Assembly (NCBI GenBank): GCA_900012615.1
Contig: LT009756.1
Location: 35,850 to 99,849 of the forward strand
Direction: 5' to 3'
DNA from: Agrobacterium genomosp. 13 str. CFBP 6927
GTDB taxonomy: Bacteria; Pseudomonadota; Alphaproteobacteria; Rhizobiales; Rhizobiaceae
DNA length: 64,000 bases
This document shows positions 18,031 to 59,763 of the stretch, one piece after another. The notes under the pieces are model-generated. The model saw nothing but the letters and a program-made list of their open reading frames with translations, ran no database searches and had not been told where the DNA came from. Made by a program: the position numbers and the translations under genes. Each line of letters opens with the position of its first letter. The stretch's first letter is position 1.

Positions 18031-18756
18031 ATGCACGCCCCGGTCGTCTCGAAAGATCTCGAGTATATTTCCGCTGCCAACCACGATCAGCCGCCGCGCC
18101 ATCTCGGCAGCCGCTTTAACGCCGAGCGCGAATTCCTGCCCGAGCCGGGTAACACGGTCGTCTGCCACCTCGTTGAAGGCTCGCAAACCGAGAGCGCGAT
18201 CATCACGACACGCCAGCGTTTTCTGGACATGCCCGAGGCATCGCTGCTTGCCTTCACGCCGGTTTCCAGCCTGCATATGACGGTGTTTCAGGGCATCATC
18301 GAGTTCCGGCGCATGGCTCCCTATTGGCCCGAGGAGATGCCGCTCGATACGCCGATCGACACGATGACCGAATATTATCGTGACCGTCTTTCGGCCTTTC
18401 CGGTTCTGCCGGGCTTCAACATGCAGGTGACGGGTCTTAAACCGACAGGACTGGTGATGAAGGGGGCGACCGCTGAAGACGACCGGACTGTCGCTCTGTG
18501 GCGCGATGCATTTGCTGAAGCCTTCGGTTACCGCCATCCCGATCACGAAAGCTATGAGTTTCATATCACGCTGTCCTACATCACACGCTGGTTTGCGCCG
18601 GAAAGCCTGCCGCGGTGGCAGGCAATGCTGGACGAAGAGCTGGAAAAACTGCGCGCAGCAGCCCCTGTCATCGAGATGCGCCCGCCTGCTTTCTGTGAAT
18701 TCATGGACATGAACCACTTCAAGGAACTCATCGTTTTTGATAGAAGTGAGGCCTGA
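18031..18756 (+). CDS. DUF1868 protein, 2H phosphoesterase-like
   Basis: A 241-residue protein recognised as DUF1868, a group within the 2H phosphoesterase superfamily. The two characteristic His-x-Thr motifs are present as SSLHMTVFQG (near residue 85) and YEFHITLSY (near residue 182), the arrangement used by RNA ligase-like and cyclic phosphodiesterases. No signal peptide or membrane segment is seen. The start is supported by AAAGGAG just upstream of the ATG. It lies 90 bases downstream of polA on the same strand and may be cotranscribed with it. The substrate is unknown; a nucleotide or RNA end with 2'-3' phosphate chemistry is the family expectation. Confidence 0.82.
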   Translation: MHAPVVSKDLEYISAANHDQPPRHLGSRFNAEREFLPEPGNTVVCHLVEGSQTESAIITTRQRFLDMPEASLLAFTPVSSLHMTVFQGIIEFRRMAPYWPEEMPLDTPIDTMTEYYRDRLSAFPVLPGFNMQVTGLKPTGLVMKGATAEDDRTVALWRDAFAEAFGYRHPDHESYEFHITLSYITRWFAPESLPRWQAMLDEELEKLRAAAPVIEMRPPAFCEFMDMNHFKELIVFDRSEA

Positions 18757-18942
18757 TTTGCGTGCACCTCCAGCCTGCTCGTCGTCCCTGTTCCGCTGAA
18801 TCGGAAAAAATGCGCGTCAGGGCTGGTCAAAGCCCGTTAGGGCATGTATAAGCGCGCCAAATTTCCGATATCGAGACACCCGACATTCGGCCTTTGGTTC
18901 TGGCCGGTTCCGTTGTTTCGCCGCTAAAGTGGAGTAACAAAA

Positions 18943-19128
18943 ATGGCTGTACCAAAAAGAAAAACAAGCCCGTCCAAGCGCGGTATGCGCCGCTCGGCTG
19001 ACGGTCTCAAGTCTGCAACCTATGTTGAAGACAAGAACTCCGGCGAACTGCGCCGTCCGCACCATATCGATCTGAAGACCGGTATGTATCGCGGCCGTCA
19101 GGTTCTGACGCCGAAGGAAAGCGCATAA
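18943..19128 (+). CDS. rpmF: 50S ribosomal protein L32
   Basis: The 61-residue large-subunit protein L32, starting [18 protein letters not shown] and continuing with the family [19 protein letters not shown]. It lacks the four zinc cysteines seen in some bacteria, as is usual in alphaproteobacteria. GGAG lies 11 bases before the ATG. It has its own terminator 22 bases downstream, so the unit is probably monocistronic. There is no plsX or fab gene beside it, unlike the enterobacterial order. Confidence 0.97.
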
Positions 19129-19150
19129 GCTTTTCCGACATTGTAATTAC

Positions 19151-19179
19151 AAAAAACCGGCCCTCGTGGCCGGTTTTTT
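19151..19179. terminator. Intrinsic terminator of rpmF
   Basis: AAAAAACCGGCC-CTCGT-GGCCGGTTTTTT is a near-symmetric hairpin with a T6 run, immediately after rpmF; it could work in both directions. Confidence 0.9.
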
Positions 19180-19285
19180 GTTTTCAGGACCGTTTGGCTG
19201 TCTTTTCCACTCACTTGGAAAATTCGGCCACTCCTCCTACACTCTGCTCGGGAGAGCAGTTTGGTGCGCGTTAGGGGGAGTTTCG

Positions 19286-21112
19286 GTGAAATATCGCTGG
19301 ATTTTGTTGATGCTTCTCAGCCTCGGTCTCGGCTACGGCGCCGTGACGAAGGGTGACGGCATCATCGCGGAAAGCTATTTCGGCGAAGTATCCGATCAGG
19401 GCCGCACCACCCTCAGGCTGGCCGTCTCTGCCCTCGGTGGGCTTTTGAGCCGTTACGAACCGCTGCCGGCTCTGATCGCCGATCACGACGACATTGAGGA
19501 GCTGGTCGCGCATCCGAAGGATGAGGCGCTGCGTCAGCGCGCCAATGTCTATCTCAAATCCATCAACACCCTCTTGGAATCCTCCGATATCTACATCATT
19601 ACGCTGGATGGAGAGACGATCGCCGCCAGCAATTACGATGGACCCACGAGCTTCGTCGGCGAGAATTTCAGCTACCGGCCCTATTTCCAGGATGCCGCCA
19701 AGGGCTTCAAGTCGCGTTTCTTCGCGCTTGGCACCACCTCTCACAAACGTGGCTATTATTTCTCCGCCCCCATCCTCTTCAACGAGGAGATCAAGGGCGT
19801 CATCGTCTTCAAGGTCGATATTGAAGGCATAGAGGCATCCTTCGGCGATGGCGAGAACCGCATCCTCGTATCGGATCCGGAAGGCATCATCTTCATGACG
19901 GGAACGCCGCAATGGCTTTATTCCGGCCTGATGCCGCTGACACCCGAAAGGCTTGCGCGCACGGAGGCATCCCGCCGTTACGCGAACGCCACCCTGAAGG
20001 AACTGCCGCTGAAAAACGGCAGCTTCGGCTCCCATCAATTGATGACGATCACCCAGGATGACGGTGAGAGGGAATATCTCGTCCTGTCGCAGCCGATGCC
20101 GGATGCGGGCTGGACCGTCAGCGTGCTGATGGATACGGGCTCACTCAGAACGCAGGTCAAGACGGCAATGATCGCCATCATTCTCTGCCTGTGTCTTGCC
20201 GCTGCCGTTATCGCGGCCATGCTGCAAAGACGCCGGCGTCTGCGTGAACGTCTGACCCACCAGGCGGAAGCGCAGGCGGAACTGGAACGCCGGGTGGAGG
20301 AACGCACTGCTGATCTGGCGCGCGTGAACCAGGAGATCGAACACGAAATCGCCGAACGCCGCCAGACCGAGAAACAATTGCGCAAGATGCAGAACGATCT
20401 GGTGCAGGCGGGCAAGCTTGCGGCACTCGGGCAGATGTCGGCGGCCCTGTCGCATGAGTTCAATCAGCCGCTTGCCGCCGCCAAGAATTATGCCGAAAAC
20501 GCGTCGCTCCTGGTAGAGCGGGGGCGGCTGGAAGAGGTGACGGAGAACCTCAGGCGTATTTCAGGCCTCATCGACCGCATGGCGTCCATCAGCAAGCACC
20601 TCAGGAATTTCGCCCGCAAGCCCAACGAAAAAATGGCTGCGGTCAGTCTGGATACCGTCCTTCGTGACACGCTCGAAATCGTCGGCGCGCGGCTGAAGGC
20701 CGCCGATGCGGTTCTGGATGTCGATCTCGGTTCGGTGCCGCTTGCGGTGAAAGCCGGGCCGGTGCGGCTGCAGCAGGTGCTGGTCAACATCATCTCCAAT
20801 GCCGCCGATGCGGTGGAAGGGCGCGAGGACCGCCGCATCGCTTTGAAAGCCGTGCTGAACGGTCAGTCGGTGTCGATTTTCATCCGCGACCGTGGTCCCG
20901 GCGTTCCGCCGGCAATTTCGGAACGCATCTTCGATCCCTTCTTCACCACCAAGGGTGTGGGGCGCGGCCTCGGTCTCGGCCTCTCCATCACCTACAATAT
21001 CATCAAGGATTTTGGCGGCCAGCTGCGCGTCAGAAACCATGAAGACGGCGGGGCGGAATTCGAGATCGAATTGCCGGCAGCTGCCTATCGCGTGGAGGTG
21101 GCGGCGGAATGA
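19286..21112 (+). CDS. DctB-type sensor histidine kinase
   Basis: A 608-residue membrane kinase. A first membrane helix (residues 4-20) and a second near 292-312 bracket a periplasmic sensor of about 270 residues with the double-PDC pattern of DctB (YIITLDGETIAASNYDGPTSFVGENFSYRPYFQDA, RGYYFSAPI). A coiled coil (about 320-375) leads to the HisKA domain, phospho-acceptor His in LSHEFNQPLAAAKNY, and an HATPase domain with NIISNAADAV, DRGPGVP and GRGLGLGLSI. The GTG at 19286 is chosen because AGGGGGAG lies six bases upstream and it gives the family N-terminus. It overlaps the regulator gene by four bases. The genes downstream suggest a tri- or dicarboxylate signal. Confidence 0.9.
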   Translation: MKYRWILLMLLSLGLGYGAVTKGDGIIAESYFGEVSDQGRTTLRLAVSALGGLLSRYEPLPALIADHDDIEELVAHPKDEALRQRANVYLKSINTLLESSDIYIITLDGETIAASNYDGPTSFVGENFSYRPYFQDAAKGFKSRFFALGTTSHKRGYYFSAPILFNEEIKGVIVFKVDIEGIEASFGDGENRILVSDPEGIIFMTGTPQWLYSGLMPLTPERLARTEASRRYANATLKELPLKNGSFGSHQLMTITQDDGEREYLVLSQPMPDAGWTVSVLMDTGSLRTQVKTAMIAIILCLCLAAAVIAAMLQRRRRLRERLTHQAEAQAELERRVEERTADLARVNQEIEHEIAERRQTEKQLRKMQNDLVQAGKLAALGQMSAALSHEFNQPLAAAKNYAENASLLVERGRLEEVTENLRRISGLIDRMASISKHLRNFARKPNEKMAAVSLDTVLRDTLEIVGARLKAADAVLDVDLGSVPLAVKAGPVRLQQVLVNIISNAADAVEGREDRRIALKAVLNGQSVSIFIRDRGPGVPPAISERIFDPFFTTKGVGRGLGLGLSITYNIIKDFGGQLRVRNHEDGGAEFEIELPAAAYRVEVAAE

Positions 21113-50762: not shown

Positions 50763-52091
50763 ATGAGTTATAGCAATGCTGCTCCATCCTTTGGGCAGGC
50801 GCCGGAAGCAAACGGTCATGGAACCGATCCGGTCAAGGTCGATCCGGATCGCATCACGATTGCGGTCATTCTTGCGAGAATGACTGAGTTTTTCGACTTC
50901 TTTATCTATGCCATTGCCTCCGCGCTCGTTTTTCCGCACGTTTTCTTCTCCTTCGTCGACCCGCTGACGGCTACGCTTTATTCCTTTGCAGTCTTCTCTC
51001 TGGCCTTTATCGCAAGGCCGATCGGCTCGCTGATCTTCCTTCAGATCGACCGAAAGTTCGGCCGCGCCGTCAAGCTGATGGCCGCGCTGTTCACGCTCTG
51101 TGGTTCAACGATGGCGATCAGCTTTCTTCCCTCCTATGCGGAAGCCGGCATGCTCGCTCCCTGTCTTCTGGCGGTGTTCCGCATCGGTCAGGGTCTCGGT
51201 CTTGGCGGCGCATGGGATGGTCTCGTTTCATTGCTCGCCATGAATGCACCGCCGAAGCAACGCGGCTGGTACGCCATGATGCCGCAGATCGGCGCGGCGA
51301 TGGGCTTCGGTCTCGCAAGCGCGTTCTTCATCGTTTTCGTCACACAGCTTTCCAATGCGGAATTCCTCGCCTGGGGCTGGCGTTTCCCCTTCTTCGTGGC
51401 GCTGGCGCTCAACGTTCTCGCGCTCTTTGCCCGCCTGCGCATGATCGTGACGCCGGAATTCCAGGCCATGCTTGAACAGCACGAACTGGAGCCGCGCCCC
51501 ATGTTCAAGATGTTGCGCTCGCAGTTTCCGGTCGTGGTCACAGGTGCATTCGTGCCGCTGGCAAGCTTCGCGCTCTTCCATCTCGTCACGGTTTTCCCGC
51601 TGAGCTGGGTTTCCCTCAACACCACCCAGCGTGTTTCGGACTTCCTGTTCGTGCAGTTTGTCAGCGCCATCATCGCCGGTGGCATGATCGTGGTTTCAGG
51701 CATTCTGGCCGACAGGATTGGCCGCCGGAAGCTTCTGGCTGTCGCAGCAGTGCTGATCGGTCTGTTCAGCCTTGTTGCACCCGTCCTTCTGAGTTCGGGC
51801 GATATCGGCCGCTATCTCTTCGTGCTGATCGGCTTTTCGCTGCTTGGTCTGTCCTTCGGTCAGGCGGGCGGTGCGCTCGCTTCCCGCTTCAGCCGCGAAT
51901 ACCGTTATACCGGCGCATCGCTCACCTCGGATATTTCCTGGCTGATCGGTGCCGGTTTCGCCCCGCTTGTCGCACTTGGATTTTCGTCCAAATTCGGACT
52001 GTTTGCGGTCGGAATTTACCTGATGTCCGGTGCGGTCTGTACCCTGGTCGCGCTTTGGTTCAGCCGCACGCTGGACATGCCGTCGGAGTGA
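50763..52091 (+). CDS. MFS transporter, metabolite:H+ symporter type
   Basis: A 442-residue major facilitator with twelve hydrophobic segments. Family markers are EFFDFFIYAIASALVFPHVFF (first helix with acidic-aromatic motif), the loop motif GSLIFLQIDRKFGRAVKLMAA (degenerate DRxGRR motif), LAVFRIGQGLGLGGAWDGLVSLLAMNAPPKQRGWYAMMPQIGAAMGF and the second-half loop GILADRIGRRKLLAV. It resembles the MHS group (sugar or carboxylate symport). CAGGAGGAATATT precedes the ATG. It is divergent from cyoABCD, suggesting a shared respiratory signal. The substrate is unknown. Confidence 0.88.
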   Translation: MSYSNAAPSFGQAPEANGHGTDPVKVDPDRITIAVILARMTEFFDFFIYAIASALVFPHVFFSFVDPLTATLYSFAVFSLAFIARPIGSLIFLQIDRKFGRAVKLMAALFTLCGSTMAISFLPSYAEAGMLAPCLLAVFRIGQGLGLGGAWDGLVSLLAMNAPPKQRGWYAMMPQIGAAMGFGLASAFFIVFVTQLSNAEFLAWGWRFPFFVALALNVLALFARLRMIVTPEFQAMLEQHELEPRPMFKMLRSQFPVVVTGAFVPLASFALFHLVTVFPLSWVSLNTTQRVSDFLFVQFVSAIIAGGMIVVSGILADRIGRRKLLAVAAVLIGLFSLVAPVLLSSGDIGRYLFVLIGFSLLGLSFGQAGGALASRFSREYRYTGASLTSDISWLIGAGFAPLVALGFSSKFGLFAVGIYLMSGAVCTLVALWFSRTLDMPSE

Positions 52092-52159: not shown

Positions 52160-52498
52160 TTTTTTTATTGCGCGGGATCGATTTTAATCTTGACTCGGTC
52201 CTTCATGAAATATTATGTAAGCAATACTGACGTAATTCAGTGTGTCTCATTGCCGGAAATGCCGGCCACCAGGGAACGCGATGCGAACGACGACGATCAT
52301 TATTTGCGAAAAAGCGGCCATTGCCGCCACGCCGTTTGCCGGCCGCAAAACGACCGTTCGCGCCATTAAACGCCGATAAGCAAAAGAATGAGGAGCAGCC
52401 AGGTCGCCTGCGGCTCCGCCCGCAGAGTGCCGGCTGACGCGCCGGGTTTCGGGAAAGAGGGCGATGCCGCGCGAAATGCGCAACGAGAGGAGAGTGCC
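52160..52498. other. Leader region before the glutamate-synthase-like gene
   Basis: About 340 bases without a supported gene. An in-frame ATG at 52388 would add 37 residues that are unlike the family N-terminus and lacks a ribosome binding site. A GC-rich inverted segment (GCGGCC...GGCCGC, about 52314-52346) may form a hairpin. No attenuator peptide or known riboswitch was recognised. Confidence 0.4.
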
Positions 52499-55400
52499 TT
52501 GAGTGTGACGGAGCAAAAATTCGGCCTTTACGATGCGGCTTTTGAAAAAAGCAGCTGTGGCGTCGGTTTCATCACCCGCAAGGATGGCGTGCAGACGCAT
52601 GATGTGCTGAAGCGCGGTCATGAGGCGCTCTGTGCCGTGCCGCATCGCGGCGGCATGTCGGCGGAAGGTGTCGGCGATGGTGCCGGCGTGTCGCTCGACC
52701 TGTCGTTGTCATTTTTTCAGAAGCTGACGGGTAATGATGCCTTGCAGGCCGGCCGCTTCGGTGTCGGCAATTTTTTCCTGCCGCAAAATCCGGCTTTCCA
52801 CGGCGAGGCGGTCGGTATCATCGCAAACGCCCTCAAGGAGCAGGGGTTTTCGGTCCTGCTTGCCCGCGATGTACCGGTGAATGACGCGGCTATCCGCCCC
52901 GCCGCCATTCCTTACCAGTTGCCGATCCGGCAATGGGTTTTCTCGGCTCCTGCCGAATGCGCAACCCTCGCCGAATTCGACTGGCGCATCCACAAGGCGC
53001 TGCTGGCCATCGAGGCGCTTGCCTATACCGTGCCGGAACTCGCCGGCTTTTATCCGTTGTCGCTCAGCGCCCGCACGCAGGTTCTGAAAGGGCGTCTGAA
53101 CTCGCATGAGGTCATGCCCTATTTCTGTGACCTTACCGATCCGCGCCATGAAGTGCATACGATGTATTTCCACACGCGGTTTTCCACCAATACCGATCCG
53201 CACCCCTCCATGGCGCAGCCCTTCCGCCTGATGGCGCATAATGGCGAACTCAATACCGACAAGAAGAACCGGCTGTCGGAAGCGGCCGTGGCGCTGGCGA
53301 AGAATGCCAGCATCATCCGGCCGAAGGGCCAGTCGGATAGCTGCCGTCTGGATCAGACCCTGCAGGCACGGGTAATGGAAGACGGTCTCGACCTCGTTAC
53401 CGCCGTGGTCTCGATGATGCCGCCAGCCTGGGAAAATGACGATACCCTGTCACCGGCCGTGAAGGCGATGCTGGAATATTTCTCGCTTTATGAGGAAAAG
53501 AATGATGGCCCGGCCGCGCTGATTTTCGGCGATGGCACCATCATCGGTGCGCGGCTCGATCGCCTCGGCCTGCGCCCGCTGCGCACGGTCGAGACGGAAG
53601 ATTATCTCTGCGTCATGTCGGAGGCCGGGCAGATCGCGTTTCCGGCGGAAAGCGTCATCCGTCGCGGCCGCATCGAGGCGGGCGGCATGCTTTATTACGA
53701 TCACGCCGAGCGTCGTGCTTTTTCCACAGTAGAGGCGCTGGAGCTTCTGGCCTCGCAGCGGGACTATTCCTCGCTGCTATCTGAAGCGCGCGTGATGCTT
53801 GGTGATCTGCCGGAGGTGCCCGCCGACAAGCAGGGCTCGCCGCTGCGTTACAACGGCGATCTGGAACGCCACCAGCGTTATGTTGCCTATTCGCATAATC
53901 AGGAAAGCTTCAAGTTCCTGATGGACCCGATGCTGGCCTCCGGCGCGGAAAAGATTTCGGCGATGGGTTACGGCAATGCCATCAATGCGCTTTCCGATCA
54001 GGAAGGCGGCGTCGCGAAGTATTTTTCACAGCGTTTCGCGCAGGTCACCAATCCGCCGCTCGACAGTATTCGTGAGGCCGATGGCATGACGTTGCGTGTC
54101 GCCCTCGGTGCGAAGCCGAACAGCGGCGCGAAGAAGGCCCGCCAGATCGTCGTGCGCTCTCCGATCCTGACCCATCTCGATATGCTGCGTATTCGCGAAC
54201 AGTCGGAGACGCCCCTTCGTCGTTTTGAAATGCTCTATTCGCCGGTCTTCGATGTTGCGGAGGCCAATGAAACGGCCCTGCGGCAGGCAATCGATGGTCT
54301 CTGCGATGAGGTTGTGGCTTTCGCAGCAGAGGAAGGCGGCATCGCCGTCATCACCGACCGGCATGTCTCCGCAGGCCGCGCCGCTCTGCCGATGATCATG
54401 GTCGTTTCCGCCATCAATCAGCGGCTGATCGAGGAGGGTCTGCGGCTGCGCATTTCCCTGATCGTGGAAAGTGGCCAGTTTTCTTCCTCGCATCACATAG
54501 CAGCCGGCCTCGGCTTCGGTGCTTCGGCCGTCTATCCGCTTGGCGTGCAGTTCCGCGCCGAGGAGAAATTCGGTACCGATGCCGACAAGGCCTTCAAGCG
54601 TTTTGCCAAGGCGGCGGAAAAGTCGCTGATGAAGACCATGGGCAAGGTCGGCCTGTGCACGGCGGAAAGTTATATCGGTGGCGAGTTCTTCGAGCCGAAC
54701 TTCCTCGACACCAACGATGCTGTATTGAAGCGCTATTTCCCGAATGTGAAGACCCCGGTTGGCGGCGTCAACTTCGCCGTCATCGCGCAGGCCGTGGCGG
54801 ACTGGCACCGCAAGGCGCTGTCCGTGAAGGGCGAAAACGACATTCCGCTGCTCGGCCTCTTCAAGGAGCGTGCGGAAGGCGCCGGCCATTCCTATGGCAC
54901 GACGGCGGTACGCGGTTTCGTGGATATGACGGAGGAAAAGATCGGTTTCGACAAGGGAACCGAAAACGAGGAGGCGCTGCGTCTCCTGCCGCTCAACCGG
55001 CTCGAAGATGCGTTCGGTCTCAATGATGCCGCCTATTATCACAACAGCTTCGACCGGCTGACCCCTGACGCCATCGATAAATTCGAGGTAACGCCCGGCT
55101 ACCGCGCCTTCGCCCGCATGATGGCAGAGGAAAGGGCGCGCCGCCCCGCCGCCCTGCGCGATGTTCTGGAATTGCCGGCCGATGTGACATTCGCCGGTTC
55201 CGCGGAAGAATTCCGCCGGGAAATGGGCCGTTTTTCCCGGCAGGGCAATAACAGCTTCATGGTGCGCGGATTGCGCTGCGAAGAGGCGGGAGACGGCGCA
55301 TTCCGGCTGCAGCTGACAGGCCCGCATGGTCATGAGCTTGCCCGCCTTGCCGCGCTCGGCCAGTCGCTGCTTGACCGTTTCGGTGCGGATATTCCTGGCC

Positions 55401-58000
55401 ACTGGCTGGAAGGCGGCGCGCTCATGGTTCAGGCGAAGGGTGAAGCCTCCGCTTATCTCTCGCTTATCCGCACTGCACCGGAAAGCATTCCGCTCGACGC
55501 CGTTCAGAAGGCGAGCGAGATCACCAAAACCCTCGCATCGGGCGCCATGAGCCATGGTGCGCTGGTTGCTGCGGCCCATGAGGCGGTTGCCCATGGCACC
55601 AACATGGTCGGCGGCATGTCGAATTCGGGTGAGGGCGGCGAGCATATTTCCCGTTATGGCACCATCCGTGCCTCGCGCATCAAGCAATTCGCCTCCGGCC
55701 GTTTCGGCGTCTGGGCCGGTTATCTTGCCGATCCGATGCTGGAAGAGATCGAGATCAAGATTGGTCAGGGCGCAAAGCCGGGTGAGGGCGGGCAGTTGCC
55801 GTCTCCCAAGGTGACGGTGGAAATCGCCGCCGCGCGTGGCGGCACGCCGGGTGTCGAACTCGTCTCGCCGCCGCCGCATCACGATACCTATTCGATCGAG
55901 GATCTGGCCCAGCTCATCCATGACGCCAAGGCAGCGCGCGTGCGGGTCATCGTCAAGCTGGTCTCGTCGGAAGGCATCGGCACGATTGCGGTCGGCGTTG
56001 CCAAGGCGGGTGCGGATGTCATCAATGTCGCCGGCAATACCGGCGGCACGGGCGCGGCGGCCGTCACCAGTCTCAAATATACCGGCCGTGCGGCGGAAAT
56101 CGGCATTGCCGAGGTGCATCAGGCGCTTTGCGCCACCGGCCTGCGCGCCAAGGTGCTGCTGCGTTGCTCCGGCGCGCACCAGACGGCGAGCGACGTGGTG
56201 AAGTCAGCACTTCTCGGCGGCGACAGCTTCGAATTCGGCACGACGGCGCTGATGATGCTGAAATGTGTCATGGCCAAGAACTGCAACATCAAGTGCCCGG
56301 CCGGTCTCACCACCAATCAGGAAGCCTTCAACGGTGATCCCCGCGCGCTGGCGCAATATCTCATGAACATCGCCCATGAAACGCGCGAGATTTTGGCCGG
56401 GCTTGGGGTTGCCTCGCTGCGGGAGGCACGCGGCCGTTCCGATCTTCTTCATCTCCTCGATCATCCGGCAAGCGTCGGCCAGCTTGACCTCCGGGCAATG
56501 CTTGCCGTGGTCGAAGAGGTGAAGATCGACAGCCCCGTCTATATGGAAAAGGACTTTGCACTGGACGATGCCTTCATCGAACTCGTGCGCTCGGCCCTGG
56601 TCGACAGCAGGCGCGAGAATATCGAGCTTGGCGGCAATCGTTTCCTCAACAATTGCAACAAGAGTGTCGGCGGTCAGCTTGCCGTCGATATCGAGCGTAT
56701 GCTGAACCATGAGCTTTCCGATGAAGAGGCGGATGCGCTGCCGGCCGTGAAGCGGGACAGCCGTGGCCGCCGGTTCCTGGAGGCGGGTTCGGTGCGCATC
56801 GATACGTCCGGTTCCGCCGGGCAGTCCTTCGGCGCCTTCTGTAATGACGGCATGGTCATGGTCCATACCGGCACCTGCAATGACGGCGTTGGCAAAAGCG
56901 CCTGTGGCGGCACCATTGTCGTGCGCTCCCCCGGCGGCGGCTCGGAAGAGGCGGGCGGCAATGTGCTGGTCGGCAATTTCGCATTGTTTGGCGCCACCGG
57001 CGGCCGCACTTTCGTGGAAGGACAGGCGGGCGACCGTTTTGCGGTGCGTAACTCCGGCGCCACCGCCGTGGTCGAAGGCGTGGGTGATTTCGCCTGCGAA
57101 TACATGACCAACGGCGCGGTGCTGAACCTCGGCAGTTTCGGCAAGGGTTTCGGCAACGGCATGAGCGGCGGCTTTGTTTATCAATATGATCCCTATGGCG
57201 ATCTGCCGAAGAAGGTCAGCCATGATTCCATCCTGCTCGGCGCGATCACCGGTGAGGATGAGCAGGCCGCGATCCACAATCAGGCAGTCCACCAGCTTCT
57301 GACTTTGCATGTCGCGGAGACCGGCTCGGCCAAGGCGACGTGGCTGTTGGAAAACTGGGAAAGTGAACAGCATAATTTCGTCTACGGCATGCCGCGTGCC
57401 CTGCTGCTTTATCAGGACAGCGACGAGATTCTCAAAGCCAAGCCCCGCAAGGAGCTGCTGGAGGAACTGGCATCCGCGCTTGCCGCCCACCAGCTGCGCA
57501 AGTTCAAGCTCGCCTATCGCGACCGCAAGGCCGTCCTGAACGGAACGGTGCCGGGTTATGGCGAGACGGATACGGAAGACATGTATGCGCTGCTCAACAA
57601 TTATACCGTGTTGAGCATGGCGCAGGCCATCGCTTTGCAGCGGCTGCCGCTGGCCTCGGGCCCTTCCGATCCCGCCATCGAAAAAGCCGTGCGCAATCTC
57701 ATCCTCACGGAAGATTATGCGCTGATGCAACGGCTGCTGAAATATGCGCGCGAGGCGCTTTCGGACCATAGCGATGAACAGCTTGCGGTGATGATCGCCG
57801 CCAAGCGGCTTGACGACTACAAGCAGGCGCTGGCGCGCCGGAACATCTGGTCGGTGGACAGCCCCGGCACCTACGGCTGGATCATTCAGCAGAACCGGAA
57901 AAACATCGAGAAGATCGGCCGACTGCCGGGCTTTGAGGAGCTTTTCGCAGCCCGCGCCATTCCCGACCTTGCCACCGCATCCAGCCACAGGGCAGCATGA
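52499..58000 (+). CDS. Glutamate-synthase large-subunit-like protein (divergent, extended GltB)
   Basis: A protein of 1833 residues with all GltB domains in order, much longer than the usual 1500 or so. The Ntn glutaminase starts at Cys20 (KSSCGVGFITRKDG) after a short propeptide and retains PHRGGMSAEGVGDGAG, HTRFSTNTDPHP, MAHNGELNT and SDSCRLDQ. The FMN domain has AMSHGALVAAAHEAV, GGMSNSGEGGE and GQGAKPGEGGQLPSPKV, SPPPHHDTYSIEDLAQLIHDAK. The iron-sulfur motif is Cys1256-x5-Cys1262-x3-Cys1266, one residue shorter than the common CX5CX4C. After the GXGXG beta-helix comes an unusual C-terminal extension (about 1640-1833). The TTG at 52499 is favoured by AGGAG six bases upstream. Its stop overlaps a diflavin reductase start, and no GltD is present. 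Confidence 0.85.
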   Translation: MSVTEQKFGLYDAAFEKSSCGVGFITRKDGVQTHDVLKRGHEALCAVPHRGGMSAEGVGDGAGVSLDLSLSFFQKLTGNDALQAGRFGVGNFFLPQNPAFHGEAVGIIANALKEQGFSVLLARDVPVNDAAIRPAAIPYQLPIRQWVFSAPAECATLAEFDWRIHKALLAIEALAYTVPELAGFYPLSLSARTQVLKGRLNSHEVMPYFCDLTDPRHEVHTMYFHTRFSTNTDPHPSMAQPFRLMAHNGELNTDKKNRLSEAAVALAKNASIIRPKGQSDSCRLDQTLQARVMEDGLDLVTAVVSMMPPAWENDDTLSPAVKAMLEYFSLYEEKNDGPAALIFGDGTIIGARLDRLGLRPLRTVETEDYLCVMSEAGQIAFPAESVIRRGRIEAGGMLYYDHAERRAFSTVEALELLASQRDYSSLLSEARVMLGDLPEVPADKQGSPLRYNGDLERHQRYVAYSHNQESFKFLMDPMLASGAEKISAMGYGNAINALSDQEGGVAKYFSQRFAQVTNPPLDSIREADGMTLRVALGAKPNSGAKKARQIVVRSPILTHLDMLRIREQSETPLRRFEMLYSPVFDVAEANETALRQAIDGLCDEVVAFAAEEGGIAVITDRHVSAGRAALPMIMVVSAINQRLIEEGLRLRISLIVESGQFSSSHHIAAGLGFGASAVYPLGVQFRAEEKFGTDADKAFKRFAKAAEKSLMKTMGKVGLCTAESYIGGEFFEPNFLDTNDAVLKRYFPNVKTPVGGVNFAVIAQAVADWHRKALSVKGENDIPLLGLFKERAEGAGHSYGTTAVRGFVDMTEEKIGFDKGTENEEALRLLPLNRLEDAFGLNDAAYYHNSFDRLTPDAIDKFEVTPGYRAFARMMAEERARRPAALRDVLELPADVTFAGSAEEFRREMGRFSRQGNNSFMVRGLRCEEAGDGAFRLQLTGPHGHELARLAALGQSLLDRFGADIPGHWLEGGALMVQAKGEASAYLSLIRTAPESIPLDAVQKASEITKTLASGAMSHGALVAAAHEAVAHGTNMVGGMSNSGEGGEHISRYGTIRASRIKQFASGRFGVWAGYLADPMLEEIEIKIGQGAKPGEGGQLPSPKVTVEIAAARGGTPGVELVSPPPHHDTYSIEDLAQLIHDAKAARVRVIVKLVSSEGIGTIAVGVAKAGADVINVAGNTGGTGAAAVTSLKYTGRAAEIGIAEVHQALCATGLRAKVLLRCSGAHQTASDVVKSALLGGDSFEFGTTALMMLKCVMAKNCNIKCPAGLTTNQEAFNGDPRALAQYLMNIAHETREILAGLGVASLREARGRSDLLHLLDHPASVGQLDLRAMLAVVEEVKIDSPVYMEKDFALDDAFIELVRSALVDSRRENIELGGNRFLNNCNKSVGGQLAVDIERMLNHELSDEEADALPAVKRDSRGRRFLEAGSVRIDTSGSAGQSFGAFCNDGMVMVHTGTCNDGVGKSACGGTIVVRSPGGGSEEAGGNVLVGNFALFGATGGRTFVEGQAGDRFAVRNSGATAVVEGVGDFACEYMTNGAVLNLGSFGKGFGNGMSGGFVYQYDPYGDLPKKVSHDSILLGAITGEDEQAAIHNQAVHQLLTLHVAETGSAKATWLLENWESEQHNFVYGMPRALLLYQDSDEILKAKPRKELLEELASALAAHQLRKFKLAYRDRKAVLNGTVPGYGETDTEDMYALLNNYTVLSMAQAIALQRLPLASGPSDPAIEKAVRNLILTEDYALMQRLLKYAREALSDHSDEQLAVMIAAKRLDDYKQALARRNIWSVDSPGTYGWIIQQNRKNIEKIGRLPGFEELFAARAIPDLATASSHRAA

Positions 58001-59763
58001 TGAAGATACCTTATATTCCGCAGGACGCGCCCTTCAACGGTGATCAGCGCGCATGGCTTTCCGGTTTTCTGGCGGGGCTCCATTCCCGCGCCGCCATCGG
58101 TCTGGAGACATCGGTTGCCGCTGCTGCTCCCAGGGCGGCCACCAGCGTGCTGAATATTCTTTTCGGCACCCAGACCGGCAATGCCGAGGCGCTGGCGATG
58201 GATATTGCCGCCGCCGCCCGCACGCAGGGCATGCAGCCGGTGGTGACGGCACTCGATGATGTCTCGATGGACAATCTCGGCGCCATGAAGCGGGTCATCG
58301 TTGTCACCTCGACCTATGGCGAAGGTGAAATGCCCGACAATGCCCAGCTTTTCTGGGAAGCGCTCGCCGCTGACAGTGCGCCGCGTCTGGACGAGGTGAA
58401 TTTTGCCGTCCTCGCGCTCGGCGATACCGGTTATGACGGCTTCTGCCAGGCGGGCAAGCTTATCGACACGCGGTTCGAACAACTCGGCGGCAAGCGCATG
58501 AAGACGCGTATAGACTGCGATATCGACTTCGAGGACGCCGCCGCCGCATGGATCGGCGAGGCCCTGCCGCTTGCGGTTGCTGTCGATGGCGGCAATCCGG
58601 CCTCAACAACCCTTCCTGTCATCGAGCCGGCGGCAAGAGCAAAACAGGGCTGGAACCGCAAGAACCCCTATTCGGCCCGGGTGAACATTAATCGCCTTCT
58701 TTCTGGCCCCGCCTCGTCAAAGGAAATTCGTCACTATGAATTCGATCTCGGCGAAAGCGGTCTGGACTATGAGGCGGGTGACGCTCTGGGCGTCGTGCCT
58801 CTTAATGACCCGAAACTGGTCGAAGCGCTGATCGATCGGTTCGACGTAACAGCAGATGGCGAAGTGGCTGGCCTCGACCGGCCGATTGGTGATGCCCTTC
58901 TGAATATGTTCGAGATTTCGACACCCTCGCGTGAGCTGGTTGCCGAAATTGGCAAGCGCGCAGGACATGACGAACTCAGCCACATTCTCGCAAACGGAGA
59001 CAGGGAGCAACTGGCCGCCTTTCTCTGGAGCAAGGATATTCTCGACCTCGTCAATCTCGGCGGAAAGCCGCTATTTGATGTTGCCGAATTCGTGACTTTC
59101 CTGAAGCCGCTACAGCATCGCGCCTATTCCATCTCCTCCAGCCCCCTCGTCGCGGAAAACAGCGTGCATCTGACCATCGCCAGCGTGCGTTATCGCGCTG
59201 AGGGCCGGGAGCGCGGCGGCGTGTGCTCCACTTATCTCGCCGACCGGGTGGAGGCGGGCCAGAATAGCGGAATTTTCGTCTCGCCGAACAAGGCGTTTCG
59301 TGTGCCGCAGGATAATGACGCGCCTATGATCATGGTGGGACCAGGCACGGGTATCGCGCCTTTCCGGGCTTTTTTGCAGGAACGGCAGGCGAGGGGCGCA
59401 AAGGGCAAAAACTGGCTGTTCTTTGGCGATCAGCACCGGCAGTCGGATTTCATCTATGAAGATGAACTTGGCGACATGAGCCGCGATGGCGTGCTGACCC
59501 GTCTCGATCTCGCTTTTTCACGCGATCAGGCGGAAAAGATCTACGTCCAGACCCGCATGCAACAGAACGGCAAGGCGCTCTATCAATGGCTTGAAGAGGG
59601 TGGCTATTTCTACGTTTGCGGTGACGCAACCCGTATGGCGAAGGATGTCGACGACGCCTTGCACCGGATCGTTATTGACGAGGCCGGTATCTCGGCGGAA
59701 GCAGCAAGTGACTATGTAAACCGGCTGAAGCGCGAAAAGCGCTATCTGCGTGATGTCTATTAA
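57997..59763 (+). CDS. CysJ-like diflavin reductase (NADPH sulfite reductase flavoprotein type)
   Basis: A 588-residue flavoprotein. The N-terminal segment PFNGDQRAWLSGFLAGLHS (residues 12-30) is typical of CysJ-like reductases. The flavodoxin (FMN) domain follows with ILFGTQTGNAEALAMD, TSTYGEGEMPDN and LALGDTGYDGFC. The FAD/NADPH domain has RVNINRLL, the RAYSISSSP FAD motif, GGVCSTYLADR, the NADPH-binding GPGTGIAPFRAFLQER and the end YVNRLKREKRYLRDVY like CysJ. Electrons would run from NADPH through FAD to FMN. The ATG overlaps the stop of the GltB-like gene (ATGATG), so they are probably translated together and may form a complex. No cysI-like sulfite reductase heme subunit is adjacent. Confidence 0.92.
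   Translation: MMKIPYIPQDAPFNGDQRAWLSGFLAGLHSRAAIGLETSVAAAAPRAATSVLNILFGTQTGNAEALAMDIAAAARTQGMQPVVTALDDVSMDNLGAMKRVIVVTSTYGEGEMPDNAQLFWEALAADSAPRLDEVNFAVLALGDTGYDGFCQAGKLIDTRFEQLGGKRMKTRIDCDIDFEDAAAAWIGEALPLAVAVDGGNPASTTLPVIEPAARAKQGWNRKNPYSARVNINRLLSGPASSKEIRHYEFDLGESGLDYEAGDALGVVPLNDPKLVEALIDRFDVTADGEVAGLDRPIGDALLNMFEISTPSRELVAEIGKRAGHDELSHILANGDREQLAAFLWSKDILDLVNLGGKPLFDVAEFVTFLKPLQHRAYSISSSPLVAENSVHLTIASVRYRAEGRERGGVCSTYLADRVEAGQNSGIFVSPNKAFRVPQDNDAPMIMVGPGTGIAPFRAFLQERQARGAKGKNWLFFGDQHRQSDFIYEDELGDMSRDGVLTRLDLAFSRDQAEKIYVQTRMQQNGKALYQWLEEGGYFYVCGDATRMAKDVDDALHRIVIDEAGISAEAASDYVNRLKREKRYLRDVY

Follow-up and report, generated by a model that had tools for sequence, protein, structure and literature searches.

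A GltB-like gene coupled to a CysJ-type diflavin reductase gene in Agrobacterium: a candidate diflavin-dependent glutamate synthase with a possible link to iron starvation

In the canonical NADPH-dependent glutamate synthase (GltS, or GOGAT), electrons pass from FAD through the two [4Fe-4S] clusters of GltD to the [3Fe-4S] cluster and then the FMN of GltB, and the ferredoxin-dependent enzyme (Fd-GltS) carries one FMN and one three-cysteine cluster (PMC8097209; here and below, papers are cited from excerpts of their text). In Caulobacter, canonical gltBD is lowered under low iron (PMC3751524), and accounts of iron sparing in Bacillus and Staphylococcus mention GOGAT as part of the response (PMC9938188, PMC9410917). 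Here we describe, in a 64,000-nucleotide stretch of Agrobacterium genomosp. 13 str. CFBP 6927 (contig LT009756.1, positions 35,850 to 99,849; hereafter the window), a GltB-like gene followed by a gene for a CysJ-like diflavin reductase. Judged from sequence, the pair very probably forms an NADPH-dependent glutamate synthase with the diflavin reductase in place of GltD. No description of such a pair was found in the open-licence literature, beyond which a paper could exist, and the word "diflavin" is absent from the excerpted text of a 2021 review of iron-sulfur flavoenzymes (PMC8097209).

The original prediction rested on the pairing of the two genes through an ATGA overlap, and both open reading frames (ORFs) are indeed present and share these four nucleotides (Table 1). 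It also placed neither gltD nor cysI beside the pair, which was borne out by the lack of any GltD-like ORF in the window by blastp and by the location of the genome's NIR_SIR matches outside it. A search with the C-terminal extension of the GltB-like protein (residues 1640-1833) matched 231 proteins among 2762 candidates, the extension being confined to the GltB-like family in this search. Among the matches listed (120 of 231), the source name was glutamate synthase-related protein, glutamate synthase large subunit or chain, or GltA, and the organisms were Pseudomonadota or Actinomycetota, some of these placements being our own assumption. Among genomes sampled at different ranks, the extension is present in 31 of 397 (order), 6 of 398 (phylum) and 23 of 39 (genus), with the genome under study counted in each.

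In these relatives, the linkage is maintained. The reductase gene lies directly downstream on the same strand in 80/80 named loci, i.e., the best 80 of 163 relatives found in genome contigs, which span three proteobacterial classes and Actinomycetota (L055 is truncated where its contig stops, and in L060 the frame is broken). Spacing, measured from the start codon closest to the aligned first residue, is -4 bp in 39 of the loci and at most 10 bp in 64, with a largest gap of 69 bp; because it stays tight across 80 homologous loci, the arrangement is not due to chance. The reductase gene is also found beside the GltB-like gene in 30/30 loci of the order (own locus included) and in 27/27 further loci (5/5 from the phylum and 22/22 from the genus), so that adjacency, which the original prediction had proposed to count, was seen in every homologous locus examined, down to 29% extension identity; one matched genome (G262) contributed no locus, and some organisms recur between the locus sets. 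On plasmids, the 9 records with the extension are exactly those with the 9 best reductase matches (at least 54%; the next match is 49%), and both genes adjoin in each of the four records inspected. Pairwise distances among the GltB-like proteins track those among the reductases with a correlation of 0.93 (82 pairs). In a quick tree, in which long branches were flagged, the GltB-like family groups into a single clade that excludes two canonical GltB rows, and its actinomycete members fall within the proteobacterial ones. Had these been ordinary GltB homologues, gltD would have been expected nearby in most cases; a GltD-like ORF was present in only 2 of 94 stretches searched, directly beside the pair in L159 and several kilobases downstream of it in L083.

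Some loci show peculiarities of arrangement. In L159 (G453:C1:509500-526000), the GltB-like/reductase pair directly follows gltB-gltD in a tandem array on one strand; the GltD-like ORF of L083 (Corticibacter populi) lies at 18223-20519, and this genome also encodes canonical GltB. In L110, L111 and L166 (G355, G390), a single TAG separates otherwise continuous GltB-like and reductase frames. The 49% plasmid match, which has no GltB-like gene, is L209 on plasmid p2 of Paracoccus sp. TOH, where genes resembling glutamine synthetase and one for an aldehyde dehydrogenase are found close to the reductase gene.

The GltB-like protein has the domain set of GltB, with GATase_2, Glu_syn_central, Glu_synthase and GXGXG all over the Pfam cut-off. 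Its score against the NCBIfam GltB equivalog NF008730 is slightly below the cut-off (1038.9 versus 1047), and 558 of 1463 aligned residues are identical to the canonical GltB of the same genome. Residues were compared in 82 GltB-like proteins and 86 reductases from the window, the 80 named loci and 7 stretches, with shorter or broken ORFs excluded. In 82/82 GltB-like members, 13 glutaminase, synthase and Fe-S positions are invariant, comprising the catalytic Cys, Arg, Asn, Gly and Asp of the glutaminase and, on the synthase side, the Lys, Glu, Gln and Arg of the loop, a Met and the three cluster cysteines. Roles are assigned to these residues by our own assumption, except for Cys1 and Met; the Lys, Gln and Arg we take to be 2-oxoglutarate-site residues. 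The roles of Cys1 and of the Met between cluster and FMN are described (PMC8097209, section 10). The cluster cysteines are spaced C-x5-C-x3-C in 82/82 members versus C-x5-C-x4-C in two canonical GltB rows. In three single loci (L137, L030 and L060), the GltB-like frame appears broken, and in L060 that of the reductase as well; these could be sequencing errors or decay.

The reductase is a flavoprotein of the CysJ/P450-reductase type, with Flavodoxin_1, FAD_binding_1 and NAD_binding_1 over the Pfam cut-off. It scores 613.9 bits against TIGR01931 (CysJ), below the cut-off of 668.15, and 466.8 bits against NF004859 (PRK06214, sulfite reductase subunit alpha), above the cut-off of 432, the latter being a family name rather than a tested function. 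Fourteen counted FMN, FAD and NADPH positions are kept in 86/86 reductases save for a T/S exchange at one; the tyrosine of the FAD motif falls outside this count. The kept positions include an SR...K-x-Y-x-Q pattern, which we take to be the 2'-phosphate site. In the Mycobacteroides group (L057, L062, L076, L084 and L089), a second CysJ-like reductase, 46-47% identical to that of the window, is encoded on the minus strand at about 270-2130, approximately 8.6 kb upstream of the reductase of the pair.

We infer the electron path, activity and regulation of the pair from these sequences as follows. Electrons would pass from NADPH to FAD and then FMN within the reductase, and from this FMN through the three-cysteine Fe-S cluster to the FMN of the GltB-like subunit; there, glutamate would arise by reduction of 2-iminoglutarate, formed from 2-oxoglutarate and ammonia tunnelled from glutamine. 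The FAD and FMN of the reductase would thus stand in for the FAD and two clusters of GltD. Because the reductase holds no iron, a protomer would contain 3 instead of 11 Fe, a count based on the cofactor list in PMC8097209 and on a [3Fe-4S] cluster; this cluster identity is assumed for the GltB-like subunit, and the changed cysteine spacing makes the assumption a tentative one. The C-terminal extension may serve as a docking region for the reductase, which is a guess.

Compared to GltB-GltD, the pair retains the GltB domain order, the catalytic Cys, the synthase-site residues and three Fe-S cysteines, but has a diflavin reductase and no GltD with its FAD and two [4Fe-4S] clusters, and the large subunit differs by its insert, C-terminal extension and cysteine spacing. 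Like Fd-GltS, it has a large subunit without GltD and, as suggested by the residues, one FMN and a three-cysteine cluster; unlike Fd-GltS, it has a dedicated NADPH reductase gene next in the unit. The reductase shares the flavodoxin, FAD and NADPH domains of CysJ, yet in all homologous loci examined its gene comes after that of a GltB-like protein, and in the genome under study it is not next to cysI.

We then consider whether carriers of the pair also encode the canonical enzyme. The two-contig genome under study does, as the original prediction had suggested checking: canonical gltB lies on the other contig with gltD beside it, this GltD scoring 598 bits against TIGR01317. Some other carriers do not. 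A synthase-domain search of 28 carriers, in which canonical GltB was called at 487 bits or more and GltB-like entries scored 346 or less, found canonical GltB in 10 and none in 18; of the 80 named loci, 32 were used, and 31 of these carriers had canonical GltB, the exception being Winslowiella iniecta. GltD was sought with TIGR01317 (cut-off 447.7 bits) in 26 genomes, 7 with and 19 without canonical GltB. All 7 of the former scored 603-729 bits, whereas 0/19 of the latter reached either the cut-off or the E. coli GltD score of 365 bits, used here as a yardstick, and in 10 of the 19, as far as the assemblies go, no GltD-like protein exceeded 44 bits; because nothing scores above this level, at least these 10 genomes offer no GltD donor for the GltB-like protein. 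In lineages without gltBD, the pair would thus be the only glutamate synthase found.

Gene order at one locus points the same way. In the E. coli chromosome, the order is mtgA-elbB-arcB-mnmL-gltB-gltD, and in Winslowiella (L087 and L092), it is mtgA-elbB-arcB followed by the pair, with no match to mnmL or gltD at these two loci; in L163, mtgA and arcB were matched and elbB was not. By gene order, therefore, the pair occupies the position of the E. coli gltBD locus in Winslowiella, in place of gltBD. Domains, residues, linkage, upstream sites and the failure of some carriers to match GltB or GltD are all read from the sequences themselves. Altogether, the universal linkage, the rarity of nearby gltD, a distant cysI (see below) and the 19 carriers without canonical GltB support the proposal in the original prediction that a diflavin reductase takes the part of GltD in a glutamate synthase.

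Other functions of the pair were weighed against this glutamate synthase. The original prediction had left room for another substrate, and a glutamine-dependent reductive aminase for a different 2-oxo acid would suit a family with a large insert, a C-terminal extension and altered Fe-S spacing in a genome that already holds gltBD. We consider it unlikely by a wide measure, because the 2-oxoglutarate-site residues, assigned as above, are invariant in 82/82 members and the pair replaces gltBD in Winslowiella; nor is there canonical GltB in the 19 carriers. It is highly improbable that the reductase serves the CysI sulfite reductase or some other acceptor, its linkage reflecting co-regulation only, even though it passes the NF004859 cut-off, bears the annotation sulfite reductase subunit alpha in plasmid records and is the sole CysJ-like match in its genome. 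This cysI (C1:1364655) lies 1.27 Mb from the pair, near what we read as a cysG-like ORF and near a ferredoxin-NADP-reductase-like ORF (142 bits to NF008178, below the cut-off of 390), and the CysI protein scores best with ferredoxin-type nitrite reductase models, all below cut-off. Such a role would also have to accommodate the universal adjacency to the GltB-like gene, and it would leave the GltB-like protein donorless in the 10 carriers with no GltD-like protein above 44 bits.

Diflavin reductases are able to reduce other carriers, and the GltB-like synthase could be fed by ferredoxin or flavodoxin that the reductase keeps reduced. This is very unlikely, given that the segment at what we take to be the ferredoxin-loop position of Fd-GltS is shorter, not longer, than in canonical GltB (in an alignment with no Fd-GltS row), and that tight gene coupling and correlated divergence suggest a direct partner; in its favor, Fd-GltS functions without GltD (PMC8097209). 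Least probable of all is a unit for iron or heme handling in which the reductase feeds a HemS-like protein and the GltB-like protein has a supportive role. A HemS/ChuX-like third gene follows the pair in 17/80 loci (one being a 27-aa partial match), and IdeR-like and IRO-type sites and a siderophore cluster, described below, would agree with it, but the search made yielded no such third gene in 63/80 loci, and seven pair upstreams from lineages without gltBD carry neither site. The glutamate synthase reading is therefore preferred.

The upstream regions suggest a link to iron, a subject outside the original prediction. A candidate operator of the RirA IRO type, TGA-N9-TCA (consensus from PMC6386902 and PMC8822346), precedes the pair in the window (Table 1), and the same pattern was found upstream of 27/35 Rhizobiaceae-like loci (expected 2.91), with wrong-order and wrong-spacing controls giving 3, 3 and 4. 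Upstream of canonical gltB, it occurs in 0/6 (expected 0.55). As a positive control, 7/14 TonB-receptor upstreams of the same genome carry it (expected 1.16; control patterns 3, 0 and 3). Across the window and 12 relatives, the flanking TGAC and TCA are conserved and the bases between them vary. Because TGAC-N8-TCA has 13 matches in the 64-kb window versus 6.0 expected, the window's single site is weak alone, and its conservation is the evidence. RirA is encoded in the same genome (297.7 bits versus a cut-off of 193). At 52210-52235 of the window, the IRO-type site is followed by a second conserved near-palindrome, with the pattern GT(C/A)AG-N5-CTGAC or one close to it, which many of the Rhizobiaceae loci in the range L013-L053 carry at the equivalent position.

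In 27 Actinomycetota upstreams, sites resembling the DtxR/IdeR consensus TTAGGTTAGSCTAACCTAA (PMC1382209, PMC9505556) were detected at 13/19 or better in 21, 14/19 or better in 14 and 15/19 or better in 11, versus shuffle expectations of 0.16, 0.01 and 0.00. One of the 36 Rhizobiaceae-like loci (L030) and three of the 30 actinomycete loci (L051, L054 and L056) have a short upstream or no full ORF and are excluded from these upstream counts. Among seven pair upstreams from lineages without gltBD, IdeR-like and IRO-type sites were each found in 0/7; L092 and L166 were placed in this set without a canonical-GltB search of their own genomes. Fur-box and ICE (Irr) matches gave no convincing group-wide signal: the single Fur-like match in L087 (14/19 at -399; 0/60 shuffles) is absent from its relative L092, and those in the Agrobacterium group reach 11-13/19 in the loci listed.

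Genes of iron acquisition accompany the pair at some loci. A HemS/ChuX-like gene is also found with it on a Tsukamurella plasmid, and on a Ketogulonicigenium plasmid it lies near genes for a TonB siderophore receptor, a siderophore-binding ABC protein and a siderophore-interacting protein. In 2 of 8 loci scanned, there is a sigma factor, FecR and TonB receptor nearby (Methylobacillus, L065) or a TonB receptor (L026); among the neighbors scanned at another five loci (L158, L159, L160, L165 and L166), none is an iron gene. Predicted sites with the RirA pattern in a genome encoding RirA, and TTAGGTTAGSCTAACCTAA-like sites in most of the Actinomycetota members, are the features that the pair shares with the RirA and IdeR/DtxR regulons. 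On the strength of these sequences, a role of the pair in iron starvation appears reasonably probable; where gltBD is kept, the pair would probably act as an iron-starvation isoenzyme under RirA in Rhizobiaceae or IdeR in Actinomycetota. Iron regulation is a weaker reading than the enzyme identity. A low-iron substitute is physiologically sensible, since canonical GOGAT is reduced or named in the iron-sparing responses cited above. The pair shares with these responses the handling of GOGAT as iron-costly; those, as excerpted, lower GOGAT, whereas the pair seems to provide a low-iron version in its place.

Several observations weigh against parts of this interpretation. As for iron, 8/35 Rhizobiaceae-like upstreams lack an exact IRO site, TTGACT may simply be a -35 element, and an extended motif, TTGACTN6ATCA, was rejected after it gave 5 matches in the genome versus 2 for the control, none, as we read them, at an evident iron-uptake gene. 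Shuffle expectations ignore kinship, and most neighbor genes scanned are unrelated to iron. Canonical gltB upstreams of 12 Actinomycetota (L187-L198) gave 4, 0 and 0 IdeR-like sites at 13, 14 and 15 of 19 (expected 0.13, 0.01 and 0.00); these weaker sites, some 190-270 bp upstream, appear partly real, which means that iron control is not unique to the pair and hints that both glutamate synthases of Actinomycetota may be iron-controlled. As for the enzyme, several of the 28 carriers are draft genomes, and a distant GltD relative is retained in 9 of the 19 genomes that lack canonical GltB (scores of 251-265 bits in 7, and of 124 and 144 bits in the other 2) and may act as electron donor there. 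Two of the seven higher-scoring relatives were scanned, and both pass the TIGR01316 (gltA) cut-off; one, in G239, adjoins a dihydroorotate-dehydrogenase-like FAD/NAD-binding protein, an arrangement that we take to be Nfn-like.

Coordinates of the locus are collected in Table 1. The TTG start of the GltB-like gene at 52499 sits after GAGAGGAG, and an alternative in-frame ATG is located at 52388. Ahead of the pair and in the same orientation lies an MFS gene of the metabolite/H+ symporter kind (50763-52091). It was rejected as a member of the unit, since it adjoins the pair only in L013-L025 (13/80); two distant MFS matches (32%) lie elsewhere in L062 and L084 in the same comparison. Neighboring genes were also set aside as a functional clue, as they mostly differ between genera (24 loci).

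Table 1. Features of the GltB-like/reductase locus, in window positions
Feature	Position	Strand	Basis
Candidate iron operator TGACTCGGTCCTTCA, TGA-N9-TCA (RirA IRO-type), overlapping a TTGACT -35-like element	52191..52205	+	Motif search, conservation
GltB-like gene, 1833 aa; TTG start codon, TGA stop codon (57998-58000)	52499..58000	+	ORF, Pfam
Class-II glutamine amidotransferase (GATase_2), residues 20-425, catalytic Cys20	52556..53773	+	Pfam, residue alignment
Glu_syn_central, residues 460-732	53876..54694	+	Pfam
Insert region, about residues 808-990, >100 residues extra versus the genome's canonical GltB	54920..55468	+	Alignment
Glu_synthase (FMN/2-oxoglutarate), best stretch residues 993-1304	55475..56410	+	Pfam, residue alignment
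Fe-S motif C1256-x5-C1262-x3-C1266	56264..56296	+	Alignment
GXGXG beta-helix, residues 1422-1589	56762..57265	+	Pfam
Family-specific C-terminal extension, residues 1640-1833	57416..57997	+	Extension search, alignment
ATGA overlap of GltB-like stop TGA and reductase ATG	57997..58000	+	Sequence
CysJ-like diflavin reductase, 588 aa, FMN/FAD/NADPH domains	57997..59763	+	ORF, Pfam, NCBIfam, residues

Taken as a whole, the sequence data are likely best explained by a diflavin glutamate synthase that would serve as an iron-starvation isoenzyme or as the only GOGAT found, depending on the lineage. On balance, we lean toward a third, diflavin-dependent class of GOGAT alongside the NAD(P)H/GltD- and ferredoxin-dependent classes, with 3 versus 11 Fe per protomer, encoded by a two-gene unit that would have crossed between phyla, would act as an iron-starvation isoenzyme under unrelated iron regulators and would have replaced gltBD in some lineages. 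Glutamate synthase is a major entry of ammonia nitrogen into metabolism, and it is iron-costly and cut back in iron starvation. If the interpretation is correct, central nitrogen assimilation would have undergone a swap in the style of flavodoxin for ferredoxin, the annotation of the reductase as sulfite reductase alpha would be corrected, and the pair would offer a route to asking how GltB takes electrons from an unrelated partner.

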